Below are positions 8,273 to 19,099 of a DNA stretch of 64,000 nt, piece by piece (the stretch's first letter is position 1; each line of letters opens with the position of its first letter). The translations under genes were made by a program, and so were the position numbers. The DNA comes from Phoenicibacter congonensis (GTDB lineage Bacteria; Actinomycetota; Coriobacteriia; Coriobacteriales; Eggerthellaceae), in NCBI RefSeq assembly GCF_900169485.1, contig NZ_LT821227.1, forward strand, positions 186,001 through 250,000, written 5' to 3'. The notes under the pieces were generated by a model. It made no database searches, had not been told where the DNA came from, and worked only from the letters and a program-made list of their open reading frames with translations.

Positions 8273-8462
8273 ACTCACTATTTTGCCGTACTCTTGCTTG
8301 CAAACTAAACGCCTACCTTGCTGAGCGCTCTCCATTTTATGCGTGCTCCTATTTTTAGTGGTTCTCCATTGCAATGTTGTCTAAATAATAAGAAAGCAGA
8401 GCCAGCTTCCTCCGCCTCTAAAAAAACACACTCGTGAAAACAAGAGATAAATGAGGATTGAT

Positions 8463-9461
8463 TTATGCAAAGTGCTTTCTGGTCGCTTTATAGTTTTGAA
8501 GATGGGTGGAAAACTCAGCGGAAGTGTCGCTATTGCCTGTTCGCCATGTTTTATGATCGATTATCTCGGATTGAAACCCATAAAAGGCATCAATATAGGT
8601 GATTAAATTGTCGAGAGCTTCGAGCTGTGCCGAAGGATAATCGCCACTGCCACCAACGTGAACCATCTCAATTCCAATTGAATAGGAATTCATTCCATAA
8701 TCGGCAAAGTTTCCTCCAATTGGAACTGTGCCCGCTTTGTCGTCGCGGCTCTCGTCCTCGACTCCAAAATCAATGTTGTGGCCTGTGTCTCCAAATCCTG
8801 CATGATGCGCTATTTTGTCCATTGGAACACATTGGACAATCGAGCCATCCGTGTTGACAATAAAATGCGCCGCAACAAGGTTACCACTTGCCTCCCAACC
8901 GTTTACAACAGAGGATGCATCGTTTGACCCCTCCGTGTCATGAAGAACAATATACTTCTGAAAGTCAGCACCCTTTTCACCATGGATGAAGTCATCTCTG
9001 TAGTCTTCTGTGAGTTGCAGCTTTGCCTTTGCTTCCTCAATTAGAGCTTTACGATTTTCAACATCAATCTGCTGGTTCTGTGCCTGAACATCTTCTTCAG
9101 AGACTGTTTTATCGCTCAATTGAACATCATCAAAATCATTAGCTGAAGAGTCATGTTGAGTTCCCGAACAACCAATAAGAAAGAAGGAAGAAACTAGGGC
9201 AGATAAGAAAAAAATTCCTAAATTTCGCGAAAGTGTTCGTAAAGACAGGACAGCAGTCTGCCTTTGGAAACTTAGTGTAAAGCTATTGCTAACAGCTCCG
9301 TAATCATGACACGTCAAATCGTCATGATGGCGACCAAAGAGGTCATTTCTACGATTAGTAACCTCTCTATAATAATGCCCCGAGGCATCATGTGGTCGCA
9401 TTTCGCAGTTTAACGAGCAATTACTATCTCTTTGAAAGCACCACGCCATATTACTAATCAA
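8463..9461 (-). CDS. Lipoprotein N-acetylmuramoyl-L-alanine amidase (Amidase_2/PGRP fold)
   Basis: The C-terminal 190 residues form a type 2 amidase domain that would cut the stem peptide from peptidoglycan. Visible motifs are YIVLHDTEG (first zinc histidine), HFIVNTDGSIVQ, IAHHAG and SIGIEMV, with a late DHKTWRTGN. Before it lie a lipoprotein signal (NLGIFFLSALVSSFFLIGC) and an acidic linker, so the enzyme is probably membrane-anchored outside. The start is unresolved: the given limit is a TTG, an ATG lies at 9449, and a TTG lies in a hairpin loop near 9318, but none sits well before the signal peptide. The first 55 codons overlap a strongly folded leader and look non-coding. Confidence 0.8.
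   Translation of the reverse strand: MISNMAWCFQRDSNCSLNCEMRPHDASGHYYREVTNRRNDLFGRHHDDLTCHDYGAVSNSFTLSFQRQTAVLSLRTLSRNLGIFFLSALVSSFFLIGCSGTQHDSSANDFDDVQLSDKTVSEEDVQAQNQQIDVENRKALIEEAKAKLQLTEDYRDDFIHGEKGADFQKYIVLHDTEGSNDASSVVNGWEASGNLVAAHFIVNTDGSIVQCVPMDKIAHHAGFGDTGHNIDFGVEDESRDDKAGTVPIGGNFADYGMNSYSIGIEMVHVGGSGDYPSAQLEALDNLITYIDAFYGFQSEIIDHKTWRTGNSDTSAEFSTHLQNYKATRKHFA
9303..9399 (-). ncRNA. Structured leader of the amidase gene (three-way junction plus hairpin)
   Basis: Read on the minus strand, four perfect stems nest together: P1 GCGACCA/TGGTCGC (9393-9399 with 9330-9336), enclosing P2 ATGCC/GGCAT (9384-9388 with 9375-9379) and P3 AGAGGT/ACCTCT (9361-9366 with 9338-9343), followed one base later by P4 ATCATGAC/GTCATGAT (9321-9328 with 9303-9310). 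A GGAG lies just after P4. The layout resembles a riboswitch aptamer or ribozyme fold, but I do not match it to a known class. Confidence 0.5.
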
Positions 9462-9475
9462 CTCACACCGTAACC

Positions 9476-10402
9476 TTAGTTCGGATGCACCGAATTAACA
9501 TCATAGCCACGCTCAGAAAGAACAGAAACCATCAAAGAAGCATTTTCATTCTCAATATCGGTTGGTCTATATTGATTTAAAAAATCATCAGGTGCAATTG
9601 TTCCTCGATACCAAGACTTAGAATTAAAGTAGTTCTGAAGCCAATCATTTTTAAACATGCGACCGTGACGTGCCCATATTTCATTTTGAGCAAGACATAT
9701 CTCATCGCCCGACATGCTAAACAAATCAGAGCGAGATAGATATCTTATATCACTGTCATTAATGACATAGGTATTATTAAAGCCAGTTTTTGTTCCACTT
9801 GCTTTTCCAAGATTTTGTCTGATGTCAGAATATTCATTGCTATCTGAAGAAGACTGTTGATTGCTGTCGCTAGTTGATGCTTTATCATCGCTCTTCTTTT
9901 CGGAGTCTTTTGATTGCGTTGCCTCATTAGCCTGTTTTGCAGCATTAATTGAAGCCTCGTTCGATGACTTTGAAGTGAAATAAATTGCACAAGCTGCAAT
10001 CAATGCGACAATCACGACACCCACAACAATTGTTATTGTTATTGGGAGTGCTTTGCTTGAAGATGCACTTCTGTTCGGAGAATCTGCTGAACTTTGCTGA
10101 TATACCTGTGCGCACTCATCAGTTTCCTCCGCTGAAACAGCGGGCATTACAGCTGTTTTGTCCGGTTCGAATGTAGGATATGCATAAACTTCAACTCCAG
10201 TGCAATCAACAGCATCAATGCTGTATTCCTTACTCTGATCTGCTTTTACTGTCTCAAGCAATTCAGTCTTCTGTTCAGAAATGTCTTCACCTGCCTCTTT
10301 GTTTTCAGAAGATTCTGGTTTCTGTTTCTCAACTTCGAAACCACATTTAGTGCAGAATACATCTCCATCATGCAACTCTGAGCCGCAATTTGAACAAAAC
10401 AT
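9476..10402 (-). CDS. Zinc-ribbon, single-TM protein with C-terminal YARHG domain
   Basis: A 308-residue protein. An N-terminal zinc ribbon (MFCSNCGSEL and FCTKCGFEV, two CxxC pairs) is followed by an acidic linker, one TM segment (about residues 131-153) and a Ser/Lys-rich spacer. The C-terminal YARHG domain (about 225-290) has NEIWARHGRMFK and WYRG. The ATG at 10402 is chosen because GGGAGAG lies directly upstream; an upstream TTG is unlikely. YARHG domains are extracellular in Gram-positive bacteria and often occur in cell-envelope proteins. It is in line with the amidase and the broken sortase, suggesting an envelope role. Exact function unknown. Confidence 0.85.
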   Translation of the reverse strand: MFCSNCGSELHDGDVFCTKCGFEVEKQKPESSENKEAGEDISEQKTELLETVKADQSKEYSIDAVDCTGVEVYAYPTFEPDKTAVMPAVSAEETDECAQVYQQSSADSPNRSASSSKALPITITIVVGVVIVALIAACAIYFTSKSSNEASINAAKQANEATQSKDSEKKSDDKASTSDSNQQSSSDSNEYSDIRQNLGKASGTKTGFNNTYVINDSDIRYLSRSDLFSMSGDEICLAQNEIWARHGRMFKNDWLQNYFNSKSWYRGTIAPDDFLNQYRPTDIENENASLMVSVLSERGYDVNSVHPN

Positions 10403-10570
10403 TATCTCTCCCAACAAGAATTGGCCTTTCTATTTATTTTAAAGAATAGACTTTCGGCAAAGCGGATTAAAAACAATGCACTGTGCAACATTTAGACTTC
10501 GCTAAGATCTACTTCCCGTTTGCAAAGGACACTTAATTGCCACTAATCCAATTGCAAAATTGGCGTCCAG

Positions 10571-11395
10571 TTAATGCTTGTTTAAATTATTTCTTCTTGG
10601 GAGCAAAATGACAATCACAAGAATGACTAGCAAAGGGAGTGCTATTGCAAGAGCGACAAGAATTGGATTAATCCTCATTGCATCAGCTGCAACCGAGGCC
10701 ATTGTGCCATCTGCGTTCTCAGTTCGATGGCCACGAACTAAAAGCCTGTGAGTGTTGACACCATATGGCGTGCACGTAACAAGCGTGCAATAGTCTTTTC
10801 CTTCAACGATTTGCAATGCCTCAGTGTCGTTTGGATCAACAATCAAAATTTGATCAACTTCATATGTGAGAACCTCATTTAAGACACGCAAAACAAAGGT
10901 GTCGCTTTCCTTTAAGCTATCAAGATTAGTAAAAAGCATTGCATTCGGAAGTCCTCTGTGTCCCGTCAAAACACAATGCGAAGAGGCTCCTCCAACTGGC
11001 AAACTCGTCCACTCCAAATGACTTATTGCAGTGTTTAAAACTTCATCTCCAGTTCCGTGATAAATCGGAAGAGAAACTTTGATTGAAGGAATTTCGATGT
11101 AGCCCATCATGCCAGTCTCATCGATTCTCAAAAGCTGCTCATATCTCACCTTTTCAGCTTCTGACAAGTCATATTTCTGAGGTTTTTGAGCAAGTTCCGC
11201 GTTGTATTGTTTCGCATCATTCAAGATTTTTTCATAATCAGCAGAATCAAGATCTTTCACGCTTTCATTGTAGGAAGCAATAGCTCATGACTGATGTAGT
11301 GAATTAACATAATCACTGAAGGTTGGATATAGCAAAAGGCAGAAACCTAAAACTAGCATTAGAACAAGTATTACAGTGCTTAAATGCTTTTTCAT
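10571..11395 (-). pseudogene. Class C-type sortase interrupted by an in-frame TGA
   Basis: From an ATG at 11395 (with GAGG upstream) the frame encodes a signal-anchor, MKKHLSTVILVLMLVLGF, and continues to residue 36 (SLHQS). A TGA at 11285-11287 follows, then the same frame resumes as AIASYNES and runs through a complete sortase domain. The catalytic residues are all there: His in LTGHRG, Cys in LVTCTPYG and Arg in LLVRGHR, with a C-terminal TM segment typical of class C (pilin-polymerising) sortases. In homologues I would expect an arginine at the stop, so one C-to-T change from CGA explains it. Genes here do use TGA as a stop. A GTG at 11260 could restart a form without its N-terminal anchor. 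No pilin or LPXTG substrate gene is nearby. Confidence 0.8.
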
Positions 11396-17965: not shown

Positions 17966-19099
17966 ATGCCTAAACACAACCCTTTTAAAAGCGCTCATCT
18001 GATAGAAAAAACTATTGGATCTTCTAACGAGATTTCCTTCAACGTTCTTGAAAGCAAAAAACTAAAGAACGGAAGTGATTCAGCTCCTGCACCTTGGGAA
18101 ATTTCGCCTGAAGCAGTTGCGAAGAAGAAAAAAGCAAGGGTTCGAGGAAGGCTTCTCACAATTCTTTCAATCGTGGCCGTCGTTTTAATTGGCATTGTTT
18201 TTGCAATTTGGGGCTTCGCTGGTTTGTTTCAAAACTATGCAGGCTCAATGGACAAATTGCACAGCCAGATAAATGACGTGGTTAAGACCTCCGACGACCT
18301 TGGCGAAATGAGAAGCACCCTGCAACTGTTGCTTAACAATGACCCGAATGACTTCGGCACAAATGTTAATGCCGACAACCTAACAAATCTAAAAGACAAA
18401 GCAGAGAAATCAAAGTCGGCTTTAGCAAGTGAAAAATCAAATCTTGAAACTACTCTTTCTGAAATTGCAACTCCAGCCGACCGCGACGGAGCAAACAACG
18501 CAATCACATTAGCTGATAAAGAGTCAAGGCTAATTGACCTTTATGAAACCACTTTTTCTTTTGCATACCCTTTCATACTTTCAAAAGAAAATGCAAATAA
18601 CGCAATGAAAGACCTGATTGATGCCGACGCAAAAGACCGTGAGGCATCGCAGTTGTTGGGCAATGCGAACACCGATGACGCTAAAAAGGCAATTGATGCC
18701 GCGAACGAATCAAAACAACTCGCAATTAACGCTAAGGGTCTTTTCCAAAACGTTGTTGACGCAAATTTCCAAAACGAAGAATTAGGACTCGATAGTGCCC
18801 TTCTGCAGAGCTATGTCGACTATTGTGACTACATTATTTCTTCACAGGATGCAACAGTAGCGGTGGCTAACGCCTACATTGACCGCAACAAAGAAGAACT
18901 CCAAGCTCAAAACGATAAATATAACGAGCTAAAAACGGAAGCTACCGACATTTCTAAAAATTGGAATCAGCAATTGCCCGATTTAATCAATGACCAGTTC
19001 AAGGAAAAACGGCAGGGCAACACCGATGCACTCGCTCAGGATTTAAAAGACCGGGATGCAATTTACAAACAGGTTAAAAGCTACATTAATGGTAAATAA
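17966..19099 (+). CDS. Single-TM coiled-coil protein, function unknown
   Basis: A 377-residue protein not assigned to a family. A basic cytoplasmic N-terminus of about 50 residues (AVAKKKKARVRGR) leads into one TM segment (about 55-78). The rest, outside the membrane, is Asp/Asn/Ala-rich and predicted as several long helices and coiled coils, with no cysteine. It lies 11 bases after the polysaccharide deacetylase gene and is probably co-transcribed, suggesting a cell-envelope role. No catalytic motif is seen. Confidence 0.75.
   Translation: MPKHNPFKSAHLIEKTIGSSNEISFNVLESKKLKNGSDSAPAPWEISPEAVAKKKKARVRGRLLTILSIVAVVLIGIVFAIWGFAGLFQNYAGSMDKLHSQINDVVKTSDDLGEMRSTLQLLLNNDPNDFGTNVNADNLTNLKDKAEKSKSALASEKSNLETTLSEIATPADRDGANNAITLADKESRLIDLYETTFSFAYPFILSKENANNAMKDLIDADAKDREASQLLGNANTDDAKKAIDAANESKQLAINAKGLFQNVVDANFQNEELGLDSALLQSYVDYCDYIISSQDATVAVANAYIDRNKEELQAQNDKYNELKTEATDISKNWNQQLPDLINDQFKEKRQGNTDALAQDLKDRDAIYKQVKSYINGK

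Follow-up and report, generated by a model that had tools for sequence, protein, structure and literature searches.

The genes for a YARHG-domain protein and a cell-wall lipoprotein amidase of Phoenicibacter congonensis (Eggerthellaceae), a small-genome actinobacterium, are separated by a single-copy, apparently untranslated segment whose predicted sense-strand fold consists of a three-way junction and three hairpins, the last of which may bury the start region of the amidase. The DNA analysed (the window) is a whole stretch of 64,000 nt (NZ_LT821227.1, positions 186,001-250,000). Both the amidase gene and the folded leader lie on its minus strand, which the initial annotation had left out, and the leader is therefore read on that strand. 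The features referred to below are as follows.

8463-9461, minus strand: mechanical open reading frame containing the amidase.
8463-9248, minus strand: Amidase_2 lipoprotein of the N-acetylmuramoyl-L-alanine amidase family (Pfam PF01510, E 2.5e-21; also from its relatives), counted from the candidate start.
9246-9248, minus strand: CTG, best candidate amidase start, 26 residues before the lipobox Cys, Shine-Dalgarno (SD) energy -4.9.
9241-9265, minus strand: hairpin P6, AAAGGCAG/CTGTCTTT, containing a weak SD-like AAAGG and the CTG start candidate.
9263-9475, minus strand: structured, apparently non-coding spacer from the YARHG stop (9476) to the lipoprotein signal region of the amidase, recognised by codon score, fold z and single copy.
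9281-9297, minus strand: hairpin P5, AGCTGTT-AGC-AATAGCT.
9328-9321 with 9310-9303, minus strand: hairpin P4, perfect 8-bp arms ATCATGAC/GTCATGAT.
9330-9399, minus strand: three-way junction, P1 enclosing P2 and P3, in the minimum free energy (MFE) and centroid structures.
9399-9393 with 9336-9330, minus strand: P1, 7 bp, GCGACCA/TGGTCGC.
9372-9391, minus strand: hairpin P2, 5 bp, ATGCC/GGCAT, loop TCGG (UCGG in RNA).
9366-9361 with 9343-9338, minus strand: hairpin P3, 6 bp, AGAGGT/ACCTCT, its loop containing most of TTACTAATC.
9451-9459, minus strand: GATTAGTAA, complementary to TTACTAATC (9361-9353) in the P3 loop, a possible pseudoknot or alternative helix.
9476-10417, minus strand: zinc-ribbon and YARHG-domain protein (Pfam), the gene upstream of the spacer.

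Going upstream from the amidase on the minus strand, the order is spacer, YARHG gene (ending at 9476) and sortase gene. The minus strand between 8200 and 9700 yielded no sigma-70-like promoter, so that the segment may be an intercistronic spacer and not a 5′ leader; the missing promoter also fits co-transcription of the YARHG and amidase genes, which is probable. The sortase gene (class C-type, 10571-11395, minus strand) has an in-frame TGA between the presumed membrane anchor and the catalytic domain, at a position where the relative in PDB entry 4d7w_A has Arg; this may reflect breakage of the gene or a sequencing variant.

The four perfect stems of 7, 5, 6 and 8 bp on which the initial annotation based its folded RNA are all present on the minus strand at these lengths, and its architecture is borne out as well, with stems 1-3 forming the junction in both the MFE and the centroid structure and stem 4 adjacent to it. 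P2 grows to 8 bp (9391-9384 with 9379-9372) when one G-U pair and A-U pairs are counted, and P5 and P6 are additions to the earlier description. Six of the seven P1 pairs have probabilities of 0.89-0.92 in a 261-nt ensemble; those of P6 range from 0.49 to 0.97, six of eight being at least 0.92. As a DNA operator, P4 was considered and rejected: its exact sequence occurs once in the genome, and the other places carry three mismatches. The interval originally proposed, 9303-9461, has near-equal z scores of -2.75 (minus) and -2.76 (plus) and is thus not strand-specific. For 9263-9421 the values are -3.5 on the minus vs. -2.07 on the plus strand, and another minus-strand run gave -3.56, none of its 200 shuffles being as stable; 9235-9410 gives -3.97 vs. 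-1.69 and 9280-9402 gives -5.36 vs. -2.74. The minus-strand z reaches -4.85 for 9280-9409, and the junction by itself (9328-9401) has -4.58, with the caveat that the tighter intervals, these two among them, were picked after the fold had been seen. A stable, strand-biased fold in apparently untranslated sequence, one of the marks of a cis-regulatory structured leader, is what we find here.

The same bases form an open frame, as reported initially, of 66 codons (9264-9461, minus strand). Its score is -0.156 bits per codon, lower than that of any of 415 in-frame gene windows (which average 0.22, with a minimum of -0.114), and its codon usage resembles off-frame reading. No phage protein family matches the frame, and phage genomes give one weak place only (E 0.8), which is not convincing. 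Homologues with conserved protein N-termini over the leader would have spoken for translation; across 138 genomes of the family, no amidase DNA match reaches the stretch. Codon statistics thus indicate that the spacer is apparently untranslated, on a test that can miss genes of foreign composition and did miss an acquired tet gene in this genome. That gene (L100:13589-15508) is intact, belongs to the TetM/TetW/TetO/TetS family of tetracycline resistance ribosomal protection proteins (NCBIfam NF033148, 1281.6 bits) and has strong hairpins upstream; its foreign codon usage is the reason why the codon mask missed it.

Over the 48 residues that precede the lipobox Cys, the reading frame of the amidase offers neither ATG nor GTG nor TTG as a start. 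Such codons occur only 49, 77, 93 and 97 residues before it, the nearest being a TTG inside P4, and their SD pairing is weak or absent except for the TTG at 9461 (-5.0 kcal/mol, 97 residues away). Amidase loci of relatives were surveyed for comparison. Among 50 loci, 29 rows had a usable start (L026 and L071 being one gene), 17 were skipped because the lipobox pattern or the upstream sequence was missing, and four had no start near the lipobox, two of which are the window's own gene and two of which (L038, L040) are cases where the pattern matched too early. The start lies at most 42 residues from the lipobox in 29 of 29 rows and is ATG in 24 and GTG or TTG in five. We infer that the window's amidase may be translated from the CTG at 9248, whose SD energy compares with a mean of -6.0 over 23 genes. 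CTG starts are rare.

The likeliest working role for the segment, which we put forward tentatively, is that of an orphan structured intercistronic RNA that would act as a brake, passive or conditional, on translation of the amidase. Sequence and codon statistics show that it separates two cistrons, probably on one transcript; in the computed fold, P6 would cover both AAAGG and the CTG and so hold amidase translation at a low or conditional level, and the junction may serve in protecting the mRNA or in its processing. This reading is supported by the sense-strand fold scores, the non-coding codons, the presence of P6 in both of the folds compared below, the lack of a nearby canonical start and the lack of a minus-strand promoter; it is weakened by the lack of homologues, equal folds elsewhere in the genome, the mostly unremarkable folding of upstream regions in relatives, the rarity of CTG starts and a codon test that can overlook genes of foreign composition. 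Of the initial proposal of an untranslated regulatory RNA, the first part stands, on the codon score, the sense-strand fold and the distant starts, and the regulatory part is not supported, with no homologue, covariation or start-coupled switch found. The segment can also be an orphan single-copy spacer without function. Leader hairpins that occlude an SD site are a general class of translation repressors, which P6 resembles in burying AAAGG and a candidate start and from which it differs in that neither a conserved motif nor a protein partner nor a response to temperature is known for it. A second point of comparison is the c-di-AMP riboswitch (ydaO/kimA type, RF00379), which is reported upstream of nlpC in Corynebacterium glutamicum, where it likely acts on translation (PMC9960051). 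The two cases share a structured untranslated leader, a cell-wall enzyme gene and an actinobacterial host; they differ in that the leader described here has no RF00379 match, as is true of its whole genome and 20 relatives, and is a candidate leader with no ligand assigned to it.

Homologues of the leader were sought widely. A DNA search of 60 relatives gave none, the best match covering 22 nt at E 0.005. When the whole gene served as query, 39 of 138 family genomes match, the own genome included, and the leader is covered by its own copy only; the one other member of the genus among the genomes searched has no amidase match. Searching 396 genomes of the phylum by DNA returned, apart from the leader, a single match of 24 nt (E 3.6e-4 for one genome) that was taken as chance, and no leader homologue was found in plasmids and phages by DNA search or, using a single exact pattern of 26 bases, in viral contigs. 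A covariance model, consisting of this one sequence entered twice, found itself and weak chance-level matches only in 138 family and 395 order genomes; the best of these (L078, E 0.0043 for one genome) was rejected, as it is antisense to an apparent histidine kinase gene and has 67% GC. With no homologue in any set searched, there is no covariation comparison and no evolutionary support for the fold. In the literature, we found no paper on YARHG together with the amidase.

The gap between the two genes is filled differently elsewhere, which bears on the origin of the spacer. YARHG directly precedes the amidase at three other loci among the 50 (L025 and L055 being the window's own). The amidase ATG overlaps the YARHG stop at one of these (L044), and at another (L072) the coding regions abut or overlap, the amidase start being approximate. 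At the third (L034, genome G048) a palindromic repeat (L034:2237-2406, about 165 nt) takes up the gap of about 150 nt; it has 52 matches in G048, both strands counted, and four in G039, and represents a MITE-like family with an insertion where the amidase starts. With gaps that are overlapping, abutting or repeat-filled in relatives, the window's spacer is lineage-specific. The upstream regions of amidase relatives have a mean z of -0.93 over the 29 rows, one repeat at -12 included, and being mostly not unusually folded they suggest that structure is not a conserved trait of the amidase gene. These observations raise the possibility, a serious rival though the less likely one, that the spacer is the remnant of a small palindromic mobile element that brought its own hairpins, displaced the amidase start and has no regulatory function. 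In its favour are the overlapping or abutting genes, the G048 repeat, which shares with the spacer the gap, the two genes and strong folding, and the long palindromes of the own genome (L088 about 18350, L093 about 8341). However, the G048 repeat is multi-copy and one long palindrome, whereas the window's spacer is a branched junction with no clear terminal inverted repeats by eye; and instead of the several genomic copies expected of such an element, a single one was found both by DNA search (next best match 19 nt, E 0.17) and by the covariance model.

As to the palindromes of the own genome themselves, they are long and imperfect, lie near tRNA genes (L088 about 18320-18510, L093 about 8310-8500), have similar centres and probably make up a small repeat family. 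Non-coding sequence elsewhere (L089 about 18624-18814) carries two hairpins that resemble each other (AAGTCTGACATAAATTT ... GTCAGACTT) side by side, and a SECIS_4 selenocysteine insertion element of the own genome (L090:13884-13921) suggests that a selenoprotein is probably made.

Chance folding of an ordinary non-coding spacer is another serious rival, although we hold it to be unlikely. When 159-nt windows were slid over both strands of the 64 kb (1066 in total, 12 shuffles each), 9263-9421 on the minus strand ranked second, and the interval originally proposed ranked 41st (minus) and 49th (plus). Among non-coding windows from the 64 kb and 20 sampled stretches of the same genome (1441 of 2468 scored, 24 shuffles), the leader ranked 16th (9300-9429) and 23rd (9280-9409), a rough ranking since the mask was built on codon scores and admitted at least one gene that is real but foreign in composition (L100:13589-15508). 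For scale, an FMN riboswitch in the own genome has a z of -1.17, and four tRNAs range from -1.39 to -2.87. Other non-coding stretches fold as well, and the fold is thus strong and not unique. That rank of about 16, the lack of homologue and covariation, and the ease with which 9-nt inverted repeats arise (6% of shuffles) favour chance; against it stand the 0 of 200 shuffles as stable as 9263-9421 and the nature of the higher-ranked places looked at, most of which are no branched folds and belong to terminator-like hairpins, long palindromic repeats or tRNA regions.

A new riboswitch-like element, in which a ligand would switch between P1/P3 and a 5′ helix made of GATTAGTAA/TTACTAATC plus GTGGTGC/GCGACCAC, is improbable. 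Forcing the GATTAGTAA/TTACTAATC helix gives a mutually exclusive fold only 0.9 kcal/mol away (-73.2 vs. -74.1 kcal/mol), which is what speaks for it. However, the outer helix of this alternative has an ensemble probability of 0.01, its 9-nt inverted repeat is of the kind just seen in shuffles, and the 5′ domain alone is unremarkable (z -1.99 for 9353-9461, -0.73 for 9353-9475). P6, which covers the candidate start, forms in the best structure of both folds and is the same in either state; a switch hiding and freeing the SD site was rejected, as a fold in which the released strand is made to pair with the AAAGG region comes out about 8 kcal/mol less stable. No terminator with a terminal T run was found, only a weak 5-pair site at 9262-9249. 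Rfam 15 at gathering score, the search that had been suggested initially, found no family for the leader and only four tRNAs in the 64-kb window; permissive scans gave leader matches all far under the gathering scores (E 0.68 or worse). RF00379 was found in none of 21 genomes (the own and 20 relatives) and in two of 14 control genomes, in agreement with the earlier view that the leader is not of the c-di-AMP class. There is likewise a slim chance that the segment is a new regulatory RNA confined to its lineage, a three-way-junction element that would be bistable and gate translation of the cell-wall amidase from the CTG start.

Least of all do we expect the segment to encode an N-terminal extension of the amidase. 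The frame open over 66 codons would argue for it; against it are a codon score under all 415 gene windows, starts of relatives that in none of the 29 rows lie more than 42 residues from the lipobox, and the lack of a phage protein family or convincing phage genome match.

Returning to the tentative reading as a brake on amidase translation, what the segment means depends on whether it is regulatory. If it is not, it would be an ordinary structured spacer. The YARHG-amidase gap itself has come to hold structured sequence in two lineages, and the kind differs between them. If the segment is regulatory, the Coriobacteriales, where the c-di-AMP switch was found in 0 of 21 genomes, would gain a structured leader, an orphan one, for the gene of a cell-wall lipoprotein amidase.
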